A DNA stretch of 64,000 nucleotides from positions 2,666,001 to 2,730,000 of the forward strand of contig CP099652.1 of NCBI GenBank assembly GCA_024123955.1. The letters run 5' to 3'. The notes beneath the pieces are model-generated. The model saw only the letters and a program-made list of their open reading frames with translations, was not told the origin of the DNA and ran no database searches. Below, piece by piece: positions 44,816 to 51,518 of this stretch. The position numbers and the translations under genes are program-made. The DNA is from Oxalobacteraceae bacterium OTU3CINTB1 (lineage in GTDB: Bacteria > Pseudomonadota > Gammaproteobacteria > Burkholderiales > Burkholderiaceae_D). Position 1 is the first letter of the stretch. Each line of letters begins with the position of its first letter.

Positions 44816-44831
44816 GTGTGTAATTGCACAC
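44816..44831. promoter_or_regulatory. Palindrome GTGTGTAATTGCACAC, copy 1
   Basis: This 16-bp near-perfect palindrome lies between the divergent LysR and MarR genes, 105 bases before the MarR start. A close copy (14 of 16 bases) is at 48361, before an NTF2-like gene. Symmetry and length suit a MarR dimer. Confidence 0.5.
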
Positions 44832-44935: not shown

Positions 44936-45376
44936 ATGACCAAGCCACCCGCCAAGCCACTCGCCATTTTGGACTGCAATTGCCTCACCGTGCGCCAGGC
45001 CGCGCGCGCGATCTCCTCGGTGTATGACCGTCACTTGGCGCCGACGGGTTTGAGTTCATCGCAATTCAGCATCCTGGCCGCTATCCACGAGCGGCGCGAC
45101 ATGCCCGTGCAGGAGCTGGCCGACGCGCTGGTGATGGACCGGACCAGCACGGTGAGGGCGCTGCAACCGCTAACGCGCGACGGCTACGTCTTGCAGCAGC
45201 CCGACCCCGCCTATCCGCGCAAACTGCTGCTGTCGCTGACGGCGGAGGGCCGCGCCACGTACAAACAGGCGCGCAAGTACTGGCAGGCGGCACAGGCGGA
45301 GTTCGAAGCCGGCGTCGGCCCGGCGGAGGCGGCGGCATTGCGCCAGCAACTGGCCGCCTGGAGTCGAAAACCGTAG
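44936..45376 (+). CDS. MarR family transcriptional regulator
   Basis: The 146-residue winged-helix protein has the MarR core: SSSQFSILAAIHERRDMPVQ, ELADALVMDRTSTVRALQPL (recognition helix), DPAYPRKLLLSLTAEGR (wing). MarR repressors respond to small phenolic or oxidising ligands. The N-terminal LDCNCLTVRQAARAIS has two cysteines close together, which might sense oxidants. It precedes an alpha/beta hydrolase gene by 138 bases. Confidence 0.9.
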   Translation: MTKPPAKPLAILDCNCLTVRQAARAISSVYDRHLAPTGLSSSQFSILAAIHERRDMPVQELADALVMDRTSTVRALQPLTRDGYVLQQPDPAYPRKLLLSLTAEGRATYKQARKYWQAAQAEFEAGVGPAEAAALRQQLAAWSRKP

Positions 45377-45479
45377 ACTTTGAACGTGCAATAAGCCTGC
45401 AATAAGCCTGCAATAAGCGCGCGATCGGCGCGGCTCGCCGCTTGACAGCGGCCGCCGCGCGTTTTACTATCCGCTTAAT

Positions 45480-45497
45480 CTATCTATCGATAGATAG
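45480..45497. promoter_or_regulatory. 18-bp palindrome (shared operator), copy A
   Basis: CTATCTATCGATAGATAG is a perfect palindrome ending 17 bases before the hydrolase start at 45515. Two close copies (15 and 17 of 18 bases) lie in the TetR/GST divergent region at 49742 and 49796. Confidence 0.65.
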
Positions 45498-45514
45498 TTA
45501 ACCAAAGGACTATC

Positions 45515-46486
45515 ATGACGATCAATCACTCCACGACATCCCGCCGCACCTTGCTCGGCTCCCTGGCCGGACTGGCCGCCCTGACCGGACTTGCCGCCGT
45601 CGGCGGCCAGGCCGCAGCCGCGACGGCCAAGCCGACCAAGCCGACGCCACCGGCCCGACTCACCTCCAGCACCTTGACGCTGAACGACGGCACCACGCTG
45701 TACTACAAGGACTGGGGCAGCGGCCCGGCGGTGGTCTTTAGCCACGGCTATCCGCTGTCGTCGGACGCCTGGGAATACCAGATGCTGTTCCTGATGCAGC
45801 AGGGCTACCGCGTCATCGCCTGCGACCGCCGTGGCTTTGGCCGTTCGAGCCAGCCTGCCGGCGGCTACGACTACGACACCTTCGCCGACGACCTGGCAGC
45901 GCTGATCGACGCGCTCGACCTGAAGCAGGTCACGCTGGTGGGGCACTCGATGGGCGGCGGCGAGGTGGCGCGCTATATCGGCCGCCACGGCCAACAGCGC
46001 GTGGCCCGTGTGGCGCTGGTGGCCGCCGTTACGCCGTTCCTGCTGCAAACGCCGGACAATCCGGGCGGCGCGCCGAAAGCGCTGTTCGACACCTTCCGCG
46101 CCGCCGTGCAGGCCGACCGTTCGCAGTGGAACCGGGACGTGACCATGCCTTACTACAGCTACAACCGCGCCGGCACCAAGGTGTCGGAAGGGGTGCGTGA
46201 AGACTACTGGCGCCAGGGCATGAACACCGGCGTACTGGCCGCCTATCACGCGATCACCGCGTTTTCCGAAACCGACTTCCGCGCCGACCTGAAAAAAATC
46301 CGCGTGCCCACCCTGGTGGTGCACGGCGACGACGACCAGATCGTGCCGCTGGAAATTTCCGGCAAGTTGACGGCGCAACTGGTGCCCAACGCCACGCTGA
46401 AGGTGTACGAGGGCGGTTCGCACGGCCTGTTGATCACGCAGAAAGACCGGTTGAACGGCGATTTGCTGGCCTTCCTGCGCTCCTGA
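45515..46486 (+). CDS. Alpha/beta hydrolase with Tat-type signal (haloperoxidase-like)
   Basis: The 323-residue protein has a Tat-like signal (SRRTLLGSLAGLAALTGLAA) and a mature domain of the non-heme chloroperoxidase/esterase group. The nucleophile Ser is in LVGHSMGGGEVARY, Asp in HGDDDQIVP and His in GGSHGLLIT. It would act in the periplasm on esters, or generate peracids. The palindrome at 45480 covers its promoter, so the TetR at 49867 is its likely repressor. It converges on a second hydrolase gene 2 bases away. Confidence 0.88.
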   Translation: MTINHSTTSRRTLLGSLAGLAALTGLAAVGGQAAAATAKPTKPTPPARLTSSTLTLNDGTTLYYKDWGSGPAVVFSHGYPLSSDAWEYQMLFLMQQGYRVIACDRRGFGRSSQPAGGYDYDTFADDLAALIDALDLKQVTLVGHSMGGGEVARYIGRHGQQRVARVALVAAVTPFLLQTPDNPGGAPKALFDTFRAAVQADRSQWNRDVTMPYYSYNRAGTKVSEGVREDYWRQGMNTGVLAAYHAITAFSETDFRADLKKIRVPTLVVHGDDDQIVPLEISGKLTAQLVPNATLKVYEGGSHGLLITQKDRLNGDLLAFLRS

Positions 46487-46488
46487 TC

Positions 46489-47304
46489 CTACAGCCCGCC
46501 GACGCTGCCGACCGCGCCCAGGATGCTGTTGGCGACTTCGGCGGGATGCGAGATCAGCGCCACGTGGCTGGCGCCGCCGATGGTGCTGACGCGGGCCTTG
46601 ATCTGCGCCGCCTCCGCCTGCTGGAAGGCACCGGGGATGATGCCGTCGGCGTCGCCGTACACCCACCACGACGGCTTGGTTTTCCAGGCGGCGGTGGCGA
46701 CCTTATCGTCCAGCACATGGTTGAAGATCGGGCCCTGCACCGACGCCAGCACGGCGCGCTCCGCGGCCGGCACGTCCGGCGCGAAGCTGGCCGCGAAGGT
46801 GGGCGCGTCGAGCGACAGATAGCCGGCGCTATCGACCACCAAGCCCTTTTGCCAGGCGCCCGCCGGGTAGGGCCTGGTGATATCGTTGATCGACTCGCCG
46901 TCGCCGGGGGCGAAGGCGGACACGTACACCAGCGCCGCCACCTTGCCGTCATTGCCCGATTCCGTAATCACCGCGCCGCCATAGGAGTGGCCCACCAACA
47001 CCACCTGGCCGCTTTGCGCGGCGATGGCGCGTCGCACGGTGGCCGCGTCGTCGGCCAGCGACTGGCGCGCCAGTTGCACCGCGACGACCTTTAGCCCGCG
47101 TTGTTGCAGCAGCGGGATCACCTTGGACCAGCTCGAGCCGTCGGCCCAGGCGCCGTGCACCAGCACCACGGTGGTGGGTTTGATCTCGGCCGGCGCGGTG
47201 GCGGCGACGGCGTCTGAACCGCCGCAGCCGGAAAGCGACAGGGGGCCTGCCAGCGCGGCCAGCGCGAGCGCGATCGCGCCCAGGGGTTTGCGTAGTTGTT
47301 TCAT
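46489..47304 (-). CDS. Alpha/beta hydrolase lipoprotein
   Basis: The 271-residue protein has a lipobox (LSLSGCGG, cysteine at residue 27), so it should be anchored in a membrane facing the periplasm. The hydrolase core shows VVLVHGAWADGSSWSKVI, nucleophile Ser in LVGHSYGGAVITE, Asp in VYGDADGIIP and His in GASHVALIS. This is the EstC-like group of esterases. It is divergent from an AraC gene, the starts being only 44 bases apart, which suggests control by it. Confidence 0.88.
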   Translation of the reverse strand: MKQLRKPLGAIALALAALAGPLSLSGCGGSDAVAATAPAEIKPTTVVLVHGAWADGSSWSKVIPLLQQRGLKVVAVQLARQSLADDAATVRRAIAAQSGQVVLVGHSYGGAVITESGNDGKVAALVYVSAFAPGDGESINDITRPYPAGAWQKGLVVDSAGYLSLDAPTFAASFAPDVPAAERAVLASVQGPIFNHVLDDKVATAAWKTKPSWWVYGDADGIIPGAFQQAEAAQIKARVSTIGGASHVALISHPAEVANSILGAVGSVGGL

Positions 47305-47348
47305 GAAGTATTCCCGAAAATGAAGATGAAATTGAAAGTGCCGCGGCG

Positions 47349-48356
47349 ATGGACATCATAGGCAGGCCCCGTCGGCGCGACCATGATGCGGACACCGTGG
47401 TTCATGCCCCATCGTCCGAAACGGCGGGCGTGCCGTCGGCCGATGCCGACCTGCTGTCCCAAGTGCTGACGCAGGTGCGCCTGCGCGGTGGCGCCGTCTA
47501 CAGGGCCGAGCTGGGCGCGCGGTGGGCGTTGCGCTTTCCCGCCGGCGCCGCGCATTTTTACTATGTCGAGGAGGGCGCGGCGTGGCTCCATCTGGACGGA
47601 CGCGCGCCGTTGCCGCTGGCGCGCGGGGATCTGCTGCTGTTGCCGCACCGGCAGCAGCACACACTGAGCAGCTGCGCGTTGGTCGCCGCCGCCGACATCG
47701 AACCGGTTGACCGTGCCCATTTTGGCGCCGACCGCCGTACGTTGCGCGCGGGACGGGGCGGGGCGGCGTCCCGGCTGATCGGCGGCCAGTTCCACTTCGA
47801 CGGCGACGCGGCGGCGGCCGTCGCGGCTGGGCTGCCATCCACGCTGCACCTGCCCGTTGAGGGCGCCGCCGTCCCGCCGTGGCTCGACGCCATCACCCGT
47901 TTTCTGCTGCTGGAGGCCGATGGCGGCGGCCCCGGCTCGGCGCTGATGGTGTCGCGGCTGGTGGACCTGTTGGTGATACGGGCGCTGCGCGGATGGGCCG
48001 AGGGCCAGCCCCGACATCCGGGCTGGGTTGCCGGATTGTCGGAGCTTCGGCTGGGCCGGGCGCTGCGCGCCATCCACGCCGAACCGCATCGCGGCTGGAC
48101 GGTGCAGGCGCTGGCCGAGCTGGCCGGCATGTCGCGCTCGGCGTTTGCGGAACGCTTCACCACGGCGGTGGGCAAGGCCCCGCTGCAATACGCGCAGCAC
48201 TGGAAGCTGACGCTGGCGCATGAAATGCTGGTGCAGGGCGCGCCGGTCGGCCAAACGGCCTGGCGCAGCGGATACGCTTCGGAGGCCGCGTTCAGCCGAG
48301 CCTTCACGCGCCATTTTGGCTATGCCCCGAGCACGGTGCGCGGGCGACGCGCTTGA
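47349..48356 (+). CDS. AraC family regulator with cupin domain
   Basis: The 335-residue protein has a cupin sensor (AHFYYVEEGAAWLHLDG, LPLARGDLLLLPHRQQHTL) and two C-terminal helix-turn-helix motifs (WTVQALAELAGMSRSAFAER, VGQTAWRSGYASEAAFSRAF). This group commonly regulates an adjacent oxidoreductase or hydrolase. It is divergent from the lipoprotein hydrolase and is followed by an NTF2-like gene. Confidence 0.9.
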   Translation: MDIIGRPRRRDHDADTVVHAPSSETAGVPSADADLLSQVLTQVRLRGGAVYRAELGARWALRFPAGAAHFYYVEEGAAWLHLDGRAPLPLARGDLLLLPHRQQHTLSSCALVAAADIEPVDRAHFGADRRTLRAGRGGAASRLIGGQFHFDGDAAAAVAAGLPSTLHLPVEGAAVPPWLDAITRFLLLEADGGGPGSALMVSRLVDLLVIRALRGWAEGQPRHPGWVAGLSELRLGRALRAIHAEPHRGWTVQALAELAGMSRSAFAERFTTAVGKAPLQYAQHWKLTLAHEMLVQGAPVGQTAWRSGYASEAAFSRAFTRHFGYAPSTVRGRRA

Positions 48357-48360
48357 CTGA

Positions 48361-48376
48361 GTGTGCAATTGCACAT
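48361..48376. promoter_or_regulatory. Palindrome GTGTGCAATTGCACAT, copy 2
   Basis: The core TGTGCAATTGCACA is a perfect 14-bp palindrome. It lies right behind the AraC gene and 84 bases before the NTF2-like gene. Copy 1 is at 44816, before the MarR gene. Confidence 0.5.
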
Positions 48377-48459
48377 ATGATCGAACCAGACTATCAGGCG
48401 GAGCACAACGTACCCGGCACCCGATGGCTCTTTTCAAAATATATCTTCAAGGAGTTTCC

Positions 48460-49005
48460 ATGCAAGCTTTTCCTTCCGTCGCGCGCGTCAGCCAAGTGGA
48501 TGCCGCCGACCGCGCCAGCGCTGTCGATTTCGTCAACCGCGTCAACTGGCTGTTTGAGACCTGGGACGTGGAAGGCATGATCGACGCCTTCCTGCCCGAC
48601 GCCGTGGCCTACCACTTCCACGGCACCATCAGCGGCCACGCTGAGATCCGCCATTTCTTCGAACACGATTACCCGTATCTGATTCCGGGCGTGAGCCGCC
48701 ATGCGACCAATCATATTGTCGATGCGGATGGCGATGGCGTGCAGGTGCGCTATCACAATCTGCTGGTGCGCCACGCTTCGCCGCAGGATGCACCCGCACT
48801 CGGCGCCGGGCAGGTGATGACCAGCCACGACGGCCTGCCGGCCATCTGGCTGTATTCGCCGATGCGCGACCGCCTGGTCCGCACGGCCGATGGCTGGAAG
48901 ATCGCCGAGCGCTATATCGGCGGCTCGACCACCAATGCCGCGCTGACGCCGGCCGATACCTCGGCGGCGGCCTTTGAAGGACTGATGCCGGTCCTGCCTG
49001 CCTGA
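48460..49005 (+). CDS. NTF2-like (SnoaL_4-type) protein
   Basis: The 181-residue protein carries an NTF2-like fold: FVNRVNWLFETWDVEGMIDA, VAYHFHGTISGHAEIRHFF, and WKIAERYIGGSTTN near the end. Related proteins include ring-hydroxylase beta-like and polyketide-cyclase-like enzymes, with a His/Asp pocket. GGAG lies 5 bases before ATG 48460. It probably belongs to the regulon of the palindrome at 48361 and ends at the terminator at 49043. Confidence 0.78.
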   Translation: MQAFPSVARVSQVDAADRASAVDFVNRVNWLFETWDVEGMIDAFLPDAVAYHFHGTISGHAEIRHFFEHDYPYLIPGVSRHATNHIVDADGDGVQVRYHNLLVRHASPQDAPALGAGQVMTSHDGLPAIWLYSPMRDRLVRTADGWKIAERYIGGSTTNAALTPADTSAAAFEGLMPVLPA

Positions 49006-49042
49006 TAAGGGACGGGGCCCGGGCGGCACATCAGGCGGCATG

Positions 49043-49074
49043 AAAAGGGAGTCCCACGGGACTCCCTTTTTTTT
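49043..49074. terminator. Bidirectional terminator
   Basis: AAAAGGGAGTCCC and GGGACTCCCTTTT form a long stem with an almost absent loop, followed by eight T on the plus strand and with an A-run on the left. It sits between the NTF2-like gene and the convergent GST gene. Confidence 0.88.
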
Positions 49075-49723
49075 ATTGTCCGCTGCGGTTTTTCACGCTC
49101 GGACGCTCCGCCACCGTCGCTTGCCAGGCTTTCAGCGCCGGGTACTCGTCCGTGACCGTGATGCCGACGAAGGCCGCGTGCAGCAGCGCGCAGTACACGG
49201 TGATGTCGGCCATCGAGAATTGCGCGCCGGCCAGATAGGGCGTCTTGGCCAGGACGCCGTCGAAATAGCGCATGCCGGTCTTGAATTTCTCCAGTTGGCG
49301 CCCGCCCCATTCCTTGCGGCCGGCCCAGTCGGGACTCTTGTGGGCCTCCAGCGTGGCGCCCAGGCCCGGCGTGGCGTAGTGGAAGTAGCCGCCGATGCCA
49401 TCGATCATCCAGTCGTCCGCGCGTTTCTGCATCATGTGGACCATGGCTTTTTCACGGGGCGTCTTGCCGGTCAGGACCGGGTTGCCATCGAGGTTGTCAA
49501 GGTACTCGGTGATCGCCACGCATTCGGCAATGTGGGTGCCGTCGTCCAGCTCCAGCACCGGCACCACGCCGTTTGGATTCTTGGCAAGGAAGGGCGGTTG
49601 CTTGTGCTCTGCCGCAATCAGGTCCACCGGAATGAAGGTGAACAGCTGGTCGATGCCTTTTTCGGCGAGCACGATGCGGATGCGGGCCGGATTGGGGAAG
49701 CCGGGGGTGTCATAGATTTTCAT
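49073..49723 (-). CDS. Glutathione S-transferase family protein
   Basis: The 216-residue protein has a thioredoxin-like N-terminus (MKIYDTPGFPNPARIRIVLA, KNPNGVVPVLEL with the cis-Pro, HIAECVAITEYL) and a helical C-terminal domain (YLAGAQFSMADITVYCALL). It conjugates glutathione to electrophiles in the cytoplasm. It is divergent from the TetR gene, and the 143-bp gap has two copies of the shared palindrome, the nearer 19 bases from its start, so repression by that TetR is very likely. Confidence 0.92.
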   Translation of the reverse strand: MKIYDTPGFPNPARIRIVLAEKGIDQLFTFIPVDLIAAEHKQPPFLAKNPNGVVPVLELDDGTHIAECVAITEYLDNLDGNPVLTGKTPREKAMVHMMQKRADDWMIDGIGGYFHYATPGLGATLEAHKSPDWAGRKEWGGRQLEKFKTGMRYFDGVLAKTPYLAGAQFSMADITVYCALLHAAFVGITVTDEYPALKAWQATVAERPSVKNRSGQ

Positions 49724-49741
49724 ATTCAGCTTTCTGTGAGT

Positions 49742-49759
49742 CTACCTTTCGGTAGATAG
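49742..49759. promoter_or_regulatory. 18-bp palindrome (shared operator), copy B
   Basis: CTACCTTTCGGTAGATAG matches the perfect palindrome at 45480 in 15 of 18 positions. It lies 19 bases before the GST start, overlapping its likely promoter. Confidence 0.6.
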
Positions 49760-49795
49760 AGTAAAATGAACGACAGAGACGCCTTCCGGAGTTGT

Positions 49796-49813
49796 CTATC
49801 TATCGATAGGTAG
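49796..49813. promoter_or_regulatory. 18-bp palindrome (shared operator), copy C
   Basis: CTATCTATCGATAGGTAG matches the palindrome at 45480 in 17 of 18 positions. It lies 54 bases before the TetR start and 54 bases from copy B, about five helical turns. Confidence 0.65.
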
Positions 49814-49866
49814 ATAATAGCGCCGGCAGTTTTGTCGCGTCAAGCGAAACTTTTCCAGGATCAGGT

Positions 49867-50430
49867 ATGGCAAGCGATAAAAAACAGGAAGTGATGATGG
49901 CGGCAAGGCTGATGGTGCAGGCGCGGGGCTACAGCGCGCTGAGCTTTCGCGACCTGGCGGAGGCGGTCGGCGTCAAGAGTTCCAGCATCCATTACTATTT
50001 CCCGACCAAGGGGGATCTGGGCGCCGCATTGGCGCGCCAGTACACCGAGGAGTTCATGGAGTACCTGACCGGCCTGCAACAGCAGGGACTGGACTGGAAA
50101 ACCTGCCTGGACAAATACGCCGACGTGTTTCGCGAAACACTGCTGCGCGAAAACCGCATGTGCATGGCGGGCGTGCTGGCGGCAGAGCGGCCCGGCCTGG
50201 CGCCGGAGGTAAGGGCGGAAGTCGAGCGCTTCACCGAGCAGATCGTCGGCTGGCTGGCGAGTGTGCTGGCGGTGGGGCATCCGCGCATGGACGCCGAGGC
50301 GGTGAAGGGCCGCGCGTTCGCGGTCTTCTCCGCGATTGAAGGCGCGCAGCTGGTGGCGCGTGGCTGCGACGACGTGTCGGTCTTCGACAGCACCCTGGCG
50401 GCTTACCGCGTGGCCGGTCTGTTGCCGTAA
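49867..50430 (+). CDS. TetR family transcriptional regulator
   Basis: The 187-residue protein has the TetR DNA-binding domain (GYSALSFRDLAEAVGVKSSS, IHYYFPTKGDLGAALARQY) and a ligand-binding half with a cysteine-bearing helix (ENRMCMAGVLAAERPGL). The family often senses electrophiles. It is divergent from a GST gene and has two palindromic sites in the gap. A third site in front of the hydrolase at 45515 extends its presumed regulon. ATG 49867 is well placed. Confidence 0.9.
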   Translation: MASDKKQEVMMAARLMVQARGYSALSFRDLAEAVGVKSSSIHYYFPTKGDLGAALARQYTEEFMEYLTGLQQQGLDWKTCLDKYADVFRETLLRENRMCMAGVLAAERPGLAPEVRAEVERFTEQIVGWLASVLAVGHPRMDAEAVKGRAFAVFSAIEGAQLVARGCDDVSVFDSTLAAYRVAGLLP

Positions 50431-50525: not shown

Positions 50526-50537
50526 GTTATCGATAAC
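50526..50537. promoter_or_regulatory. LacI-type palindrome 1
   Basis: GTTATCGATAAC is a perfect 12-bp palindrome with the central CG typical of LacI/GalR operators. Its centre is 65 bases from that of the second copy. Confidence 0.5.
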
Positions 50538-50587: not shown

Positions 50588-50605
50588 ATTATTATCGATA
50601 ACAAT
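50588..50605. promoter_or_regulatory. LacI-type palindrome 2
   Basis: ATTATTATCGATAACAAT pairs at 16 of 18 positions around TTATCGATAA. With copy 1 it defines the consensus ATTGTTATCGATAACAAT. No LacI-type gene lies nearby. Confidence 0.5.
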
Positions 50606-50898: not shown

Positions 50899-51153
50899 AT
50901 GGCCAAGCCAATTAATCTGACTATTCAACAATGGGGCAATAGCCTGGCAGTGCGCATTCCGGCGGCGATCGCGCGATCAGCGCATTTTTCGGTGGGTCAG
51001 CCGGTCGAGATGGTGCTCGATGAGGCCGGCGTTACGGTCCGGGCCGTGGGGCAGCCGAAGTTATCGCTGGCCCAGAAACTTGCATTATTCGATCCGGCCA
51101 TCCACGGTGGCGAAGTGATGGAAACGCGGCCTCTGGGTATCGAGGAGATGTGA
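50899..51153 (+). CDS. AbrB/MazE-type antitoxin
   Basis: The 84-residue protein begins with a swapped-hairpin AbrB/MazE domain (NLTIQQWGNSLAVRIPAAIA, VEMVLDEAGVTVRAVG), which binds its own promoter. The acidic C-terminal tail (GGEVMETRPLGIEEM) is the part that usually wraps the MazF toxin. The stop overlaps the toxin start. GGAGG stands before ATG 50899. The pair appears intact. Confidence 0.9.
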   Translation: MAKPINLTIQQWGNSLAVRIPAAIARSAHFSVGQPVEMVLDEAGVTVRAVGQPKLSLAQKLALFDPAIHGGEVMETRPLGIEEM

Positions 51154-51518
51154 TGGTGGCCAGGAAGATCTGGTCGCCAGAGCGGCGCGATATCATCTGG
51201 ATCGATTGTAATCCCCAAGCAGGCCGCGAAATGAAGGATTTCCATCCGCTGCTTGTGCTTTCCCCCAAGGCATTCAACGAGCGTACCGGCATTGTCATCG
51301 GACTGCCGGTGACTACTGCCGCCTACAACGACGCCAATCCGTTTGCGATACGATTTGTCGGCGCGACCGGAGTTGTCAGCTATATTCTCGCGCACCAGCC
51401 GAAGTCATTCGACTGGAAAAGCCGGGGAGGTAAAGCACATCCGATGAAACAGGCGCCGGAAAGCATATTTCTTGAGGCTTGCGATGCGCTGAACCAGATT
51501 GTCGCTATCGGCCCATAA
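51153..51518 (+). CDS. MazF/PemK-type endoribonuclease toxin
   Basis: The 121-residue protein has the MazF/PemK fold: WSPERRDIIWIDCNPQAGRE (catalytic Arg region), HPLLVLSPKAFNERTGIVIG, LPVTTA and a C-terminal EACDALNQIVAI helix. MazF toxins cut mRNA at short sequences. Length and motifs are complete, so unlike the two other modules in this window this toxin seems functional. It begins at ATG 51153 within the TGATG overlap; a GTG at 51150 is an alternative. Confidence 0.9.
   Translation: MVARKIWSPERRDIIWIDCNPQAGREMKDFHPLLVLSPKAFNERTGIVIGLPVTTAAYNDANPFAIRFVGATGVVSYILAHQPKSFDWKSRGGKAHPMKQAPESIFLEACDALNQIVAIGP

Follow-up and report, generated by a model that had tools for sequence, protein, structure and literature searches.

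Several regulators described elsewhere offer points of comparison for the locus analysed here. NemR of Escherichia coli is a TetR-family repressor of detoxification enzymes in which, according to passages of a review, Cys106 is assigned to the sensing of reactive chlorine and Cys21 and Cys116 to that of electrophiles. AltR of Pantoea ananatis, also a TetR repressor, governs an autoregulated detoxification cluster for thiosulfinate tolerance, and in the consulted parts of the AltR paper Cys100 is reported to be needed for a response to thiosulfinates that is not elicited by N-ethylmaleimide or diamide. In Agrobacterium, the hydroperoxide-inducible alpha/beta-hydrolase gene estC is controlled by EstR, a thiol sensor of the MarR type, as set out in passages of PMC5201249. 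Here we analyse a stretch of 64,000 nucleotides from the soil bacterium Oxalobacteraceae bacterium OTU3CINTB1 (contig CP099652.1, positions 2,666,001 to 2,730,000; hereafter the window), in which three copies of one 18-bp palindrome accompany the genes of a TetR-family protein, a glutathione S-transferase (GST) and, some 4 kb from these two, an alpha/beta-hydrolase. By comparison with relatives we consider it likely, with good confidence, that the TetR protein is a repressor acting on these three palindromes at the tetR, GST and hydrolase promoters, and that its inducer is most likely thiol-reactive.

Operators and promoters of the locus

The genes, operators (O1 to O3) and promoter elements of the proposed circuit are the following:

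45442..45470, forward strand: hydrolase promoter, TTGACA (45442-45447), 17 bp, TACTAT (45465-45470); 10/12 consensus bases
45480..45497: operator O3, perfect 18-bp palindrome (18/18), starting 35 bp before the hydrolase ATG and 9 bp after the -10 box
45515..46486, forward strand: alpha/beta-hydrolase, 323 aa, cofactor-free haloperoxidase/arylesterase type, probably exported
49073..49723, reverse strand: GST, 216 aa, nearest solved relative yeast Gtt2
49742..49759: operator O2, 15/18, adjoining the candidate tetR promoter
49762..49767, forward strand: candidate tetR -10 box, TAAAAT, adjoining O2 (alignment read by eye)
49796..49813: operator O1, 17/18, immediately following the GST -10 box
49814..49843, reverse strand: GST promoter, TTGACG (49843-49838), 18 bp, TATTAT (49819-49814); 10/12 consensus bases
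49867..50430, forward strand: predicted TetR-family repressor, 187 aa, carrying Cys99

When the window was scanned with the 18-mer CTATCTATCGATAGATAG, three sites with at most three mismatches were found, at 45480-45497 (0), 49742-49759 (3) and 49796-49813 (1), which bears out the matches of 18/18, 15/18 and 17/18 reported in an earlier note on this DNA, and 100 shuffles gave no such site. A scan of the whole genome, a single contig of 6,868,374 bases in which the window occupies C1:2666001-2730000, had been proposed in that note as a check; at up to three mismatches it returned nothing in 6.87 Mb beyond the three sites already named, compared with one site for the reversed pattern. About two sites at this mismatch level would arise in a random genome of such length if all four bases were equally frequent, and the reversed pattern does occur once, so that the palindrome at 45480 could be regarded as accidental or as a functionless relic. 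However, an exact match is expected only about 1e-4 times, and when the hydrolase promoters of six genomes were aligned, 17 of the 18 operator columns and all six columns of each promoter box were invariant within a diverging region (38/113 columns elsewhere), with the operator always at the same position after the -10 box. Given this conservation, a functionless site is a most improbable explanation. The wider pattern CTAYCTNNNNNNAGRTAG has four perfect matches in the genome, namely the three operators of the window and a site at 929389 that adjoins the gene of a TetR paralogue (31% identical). No convincing fifth site was found in this genome, the family pattern with at most one mismatch occurring at 13 places and the reversed control at 10.

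O2 and O1 lie within the divergent TetR/GST intergenic region with a start-to-start spacing of 54 bp, as the earlier note had described, with the refinement that it is the tetR-proximal site (49796) and not the GST-proximal one that abuts the GST promoter. Upstream of GST genes, a simple rule recognized a comparable promoter-operator build in 14 of the 19 regions examined, with the operator starting 0-11 bp behind the -10 box; these include L189-L193, which represent another genus or a convergent layout, while the same rule found no such build before the GST genes of L013, L014, L015, L017 and L018. The counterpart of the candidate tetR -10 box in L011 and L012 is TATAAT.

The sites, their uniqueness and conservation, their promoter positions and the co-occurrence of the genes are features of the sequences themselves. 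As to the mechanism, we infer that a TetR dimer would bind O1, O2 and O3 as three copies of one palindrome. O1 follows closely on the GST -10 box, O3 has the corresponding place at the hydrolase promoter, and O2 flanks the candidate tetR promoter; bound TetR would thus block the start of transcription at all three. The inducer, most likely a thiol-reactive compound, would modify Cys99 and release the repressor, which would switch on a cytosolic GST, a presumably exported hydrolase of the esterase/haloperoxidase type, and tetR itself. Such a circuit would most likely serve as a small detoxification system.

The hydrolase is related in sequence to the cofactor-free haloperoxidase/arylesterase family, with chloroperoxidase F as its best solved relative (1a8s, E 6e-103), which supports the label 'haloperoxidase-like' given to it in the earlier note. 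It carries the Ser-Asp-His motifs of this family (GHSMGG from residue 143, HGDDD from 270 and GGSHGL from 300) and would be expected to have esterase or perhydrolase activity, while a twin-arginine-type N-terminus judged by eye (SRR from residue 9) suggests export via the Tat route and is the basis for the earlier note's placing of the enzyme in the periplasm. The GST has GST_N and GST_C domains (Pfam) and is of the Gtt2 type (3erf, yeast Gtt2, E 1.2e-69).

Conservation in the TetR subfamily and among hydrolase orthologues

The TetR protein is a member of the TetR/AcrR family by its TetR_N helix-turn-helix (PF00440, 41.2 bits with a cut-off of 24), and its AlphaFold2 model is all-helical, with nine helices and a mean pLDDT of 96. 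Its nearest solved relatives are 3on4 and 2g7s, and its closest named relatives fall in Duganella. The relatives examined were the best 80 of 161 found with the search probe IHYYFPTK; they span Pseudomonadota, Actinomycetota, Bacteroidota, Bacillota, Planctomycetota and other phyla, and identities range from 24 to 98% in a 39-row alignment covering 34 of the 80. Since the probe selects for residues 41-48, the invariance of these residues was set aside as evidence. A search of the 300 bp preceding the TetR gene found the palindrome at 11 or more of its 12 key positions in 70 of the 80 relatives (36 with 12/12), and the reversed control in 0/80. Likewise, 163 positions at this level occurred in all 894 kb of relative loci, compared with 8 in the reversed control. 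Where TetR and GST genes are convergent, the GST retains an upstream operator of its own in 3/3 cases (L191-L193) and tetR in 2/3 (L192 and L193).

The hydrolase probably belongs to the same regulon. Within the genus set of 74 genomes, an orthologue was found in 7 (cut-off E<=1e-125) and the TetR in 13 (cut-off E<=1e-50), and all 7 hydrolase genomes also hold the TetR. In six of the seven, the hydrolase ATG is preceded by a 12/12 operator whose start lies 35-39 bp upstream of it, while in the remaining genome (G199, locus L012) the gene order is TetR-operators-GST-hydrolase and the hydrolase lies behind the GST. Of 145 genomes of the bacterial family, 53 yielded a total of 76 hydrolase matches, two of these being the orthologues of the source genome and of G089; 28 of the other 74 matches were examined over 400 bp upstream, and none had a 12/12 site and two had an 11/12 site. 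Taken together, the conserved operators and promoter architecture, the co-occurrence of the genes and the GST-hydrolase order in a relative give strong comparative backing to the proposal of the earlier note that one TetR governs its own gene as well as those of the GST and the hydrolase, and a shared regulon of the three genes appears likely.

Several observations weigh against this reading. The promoter scan listed no promoter on the forward strand for tetR, for which no good -35 box was found. The 80 loci cannot be counted as independent, with 21 of them coming from Burkholderia, Caballeronia or Paraburkholderia by record title, and for 10 of the 80 relatives the 300 bp ahead of the TetR gene contained no 11/12 site; of these ten, L013, L047 and L061 carry a 12/12 site before the gene preceding TetR. 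In addition, seven genomes of another genus (g6) carry CTACCTACCGATAGGTAG (four) or a one-mismatch form of it (three) and gave no TetR match at E<=1e-25. In the sole case inspected (L197), CTACCTACCGATAGGTAG at 2907-2924 stands about 66 bp upstream of a gene for an MFS-type transporter (by eye), and the motif alone is therefore no proof of this TetR, as similar sites can serve a different regulator. Finally, two paralogous TetRs of the source genome have related palindromes nearby, and cross-talk is possible. At one paralogue (L187, TetR 1868-2443) the variant CTAACGAACGTTAGGTAG occurs at 2498, beside an amidase-like gene as judged by eye, and at the other (L188, TetR 1395-1979) the variants CTACCTACTAGTTGGTAG and CTACCTTCCAGTAGGTAG occur at 1319 and 1990; the centre of the palindrome may set the specificity between the paralogues.

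A further point on this side comes from the MarR gene that lies directly upstream of the hydrolase in 6/7 orthologous loci and could add control. The hydrolase might then be mainly under this neighbouring MarR and the palindrome might be a MarR site, in the manner of EstR and estC in A. tumefaciens, a published MarR-esterase pair with palindromic operators (described in passages of PMC5201249). However, the palindrome recurs at the TetR gene in distant relatives, and 37 of 40 loci are listed without a MarR relative at >=35% identity. At L012, where the hydrolase sits behind the GST, no MarR relative was found on the stretches compared, and the EstR box given in the passages of PMC5201249, GTTATCGCGATAAC, is unlike the palindrome of the window. 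The TetR-linked recurrence, the MarR-less loci and the differing EstR box make MarR an improbable owner of the palindrome, and control by the TetR is preferred.

Other features of the surroundings are as follows:

44936-45376: MarR gene, upstream of the first hydrolase
44817-44830 (LysR/MarR intergenic region) and 48362-48375 (before the SnoaL-type gene): palindrome TGTGYAATTGCACA
47349-48356: AraC-type regulator, flanked by the second hydrolase and the SnoaL-type gene; best NCBIfam match RclR (reactive-chlorine regulator), 99 bits with a cut-off of 400
50527-50536 and 50592-50601, downstream of tetR: palindrome TTATCGATAA, in two copies with a spacing of 65 bp
51150-51518 (region 50900-51518): MazF/PemK-like open reading frame, with a short frame resembling MazE ahead of it at about 50901 (by eye)

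The second hydrolase, the AraC-type gene and the SnoaL-type gene stand between the first hydrolase and the GST/TetR pair, and none has a site. TGTGYAATTGCACA, which may be an operator of the LysR or MarR protein, recurs in L004 (both copies, 545 and 4010), L005 (one, 3979) and L171 (one, 794). The TTATCGATAA palindromes have counterparts in L004 at 6680 and 6747 and somewhat resemble the EstR box as printed in PMC5201249.

Cys99 and a possible second hydrolase lineage

Cys99 was found in 80/80 relatives as well as in the window protein. It aligns with NemR Cys106, so that a cysteine stands where NemR-like thiol sensors have theirs, and the structural model puts it just ahead of helix 100-106; release from DNA upon thiol modification would be predicted for a sensor of this kind. 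The window TetR has no cysteine where NemR has Cys21 and Cys116 (alignment, by eye). The GST together with Cys99 makes the 'electrophile response' suggested in the earlier note plausible by analogy. However, considering the roles of NemR Cys106 and AltR Cys100, thiol chemistry in general is a fair guess for which 'electrophile' is narrower than the evidence, and the inducer may be a thiol oxidant instead.

Alternatively, the three-promoter circuit could be real and yet sense a non-reactive small molecule, such as a hydrolase substrate of ester, lactone or aromatic type, with Cys99 in a structural role. TetR proteins mostly bind small ligands, and in other loci the operator is linked to genes for amidases, short-chain dehydrogenases and further hydrolases, among others. 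Among 20 chosen proteins beside such operators in distant relatives there were 4 GSTs, 4 short-chain dehydrogenases, 3 amidases and 4 alpha/beta-hydrolases (2 Abhydrolase_1 and 2 Abhydrolase_3), the remainder being 1 OsmC, 1 Cu-oxidase_4, 1 homocysteine S-methyltransferase-like protein, 1 ChrR-cupin and 1 protein without a Pfam match; no single theme covers all of them. In contrast, the retention of Cys99 in relatives down to about 24% identity, at the position of NemR Cys106, and the GST as a recurrent partner, with OsmC found once, argue for thiol chemistry. A non-reactive ligand thus retains a fair probability but is the less likely case in our view, and a thiol-reactive inducer remains the preferred interpretation.

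A second hydrolase may have come under the same type of control. The Duganella genomes G145, G146 and G151 have the TetR-GST pair, and no orthologue of the window hydrolase was among their matches at the cut-off. Duganella aceris (G145) has an additional site at C1:575821, which differs from the search pattern at two positions and from the 18-mer at three (10/12 key positions), is unlinked to tetR/gst and starts 45 bp before the gene of a different hydrolase with a signal-like N-terminus; TTGACG-17-TAGTAT precedes it (by eye). This hydrolase is 26% identical to that of the window and 68% identical to a hydrolase encoded behind a GST gene on a plasmid of Paraburkholderia caledonica, where the GST-hydrolase genes stand beside a 55%-identical TetR and the two palindromes score 10/12. 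On the other side of the balance, the site is weak when judged on sequence only: the control yields two-mismatch sites at about the same frequency, with four forward matches listed for G145 (two of them at tetR/gst) compared with two for the control. Homologues of the D. aceris hydrolase were rejected as general targets, since among 30 loci in 19/74 genus genomes only the D. aceris site is within three mismatches of the 18-mer; at one homologue (L226) the site also reaches 10/12 key positions, yet has 9/18 mismatches to the 18-mer. Position and neighbour make the D. aceris site an interesting, suggestive candidate for an independent regulon target, and two hydrolase lineages may have been brought under this operator family beside a GST. 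Another extra site of this genome lies at C12:529818.

Relation to described systems

In searches on the operator or on a TetR/GST pair, none of the titles and abstract starts listed from openly licensed PMC papers describes this operator, which does not imply absence from print, and the TetR subfamily is apparently uncharacterised so far. In a broader interpretation, which we put forward only tentatively because the second lineage rests on sites at 10/12 key positions, this would be an unnamed cross-phylum subfamily of thiol-sensing TetRs with one operator, CTAYCT-N6-AGRTAG, that repeatedly joins a cytosolic GST and an exported alpha/beta-hydrolase from two lineages 26% identical to each other. 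Such repeated pairing would suggest that both enzymes deal with one class of toxic compound (esters, lactones or peroxy compounds), one on each side of the inner membrane. The conservation of the operator lets targets of this subfamily be proposed from sequence across phyla, which yields testable regulons in many unstudied genomes, secreted hydrolases of unknown purpose included. If Cys99 is the sensor, these loci would also provide a naturally occurring collection of thiol-responsive promoters, and the GST and the exported hydrolase would act as a pair in one step of detoxification.

A relation to LmrA/QdoR-type TetRs, which have flavonoid ligands, is hinted at by a match of the C-terminal half of the window TetR to Pfam TetR_C_13_2 (E 4e-5, below the Pfam cut-off). 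On a Burkholderia cepacia onion plasmid (L201, 1-12495), a 34.5%-identical TetR lies among genes for OsmC, a short-chain dehydrogenase, an alkene reductase, DsbA and a PatB C-S lyase, a cluster that we take to resemble the alt and other thiosulfinate-tolerance clusters. AltR itself is of the same family as the window TetR, has an essential cysteine (Cys100) and regulates its own detoxification cluster, as is proposed for the window TetR, and the ATCTAC half-site of its inverted-repeat operator, given in the consulted parts of the AltR paper as CAATCTAC[N6]GTAGATTG, resembles that of the window. However, the half-sites are 6 bp apart in the AltR box and 2 bp apart in the window operator, AltR being compared here by its description, and the term 'glutathione S-transferase' appears 0 times in the main text of that paper as consulted. 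The AltR box (CAATCTAC[N6]GTAGATTG, or YWAYCWAC[N6]GTWGRTWR) had 0 matches in the window, and its loose consensus was matched somewhere in 11/80 relative loci.

The EstR/estC system is similar in having two operators in a divergent region, one of them over the -10 box of the hydrolase gene, but differs in that its regulator is a MarR and not a TetR protein and its operator is another one; GST is not mentioned in the passages of PMC5201249 consulted. NemR agrees with the window TetR in family, in the repression of detoxification enzymes (predicted for the window TetR) and in the alignment of Cys106 with Cys99, while the two proteins are only 19% identical over 176 columns (hhalign) and NemR acts on nemA and gloA, compared with a GST and a hydrolase here. 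Orthology with NemR was not indicated by the 11 NCBIfam matches, which were all below cut-off and none of them NemR-named, the presence of a NemR model in NCBIfam being unchecked. In summary, the locus appears to be a well-made case of an ordinary local TetR regulon with possible thiol sensing, of a kind already known from such systems.

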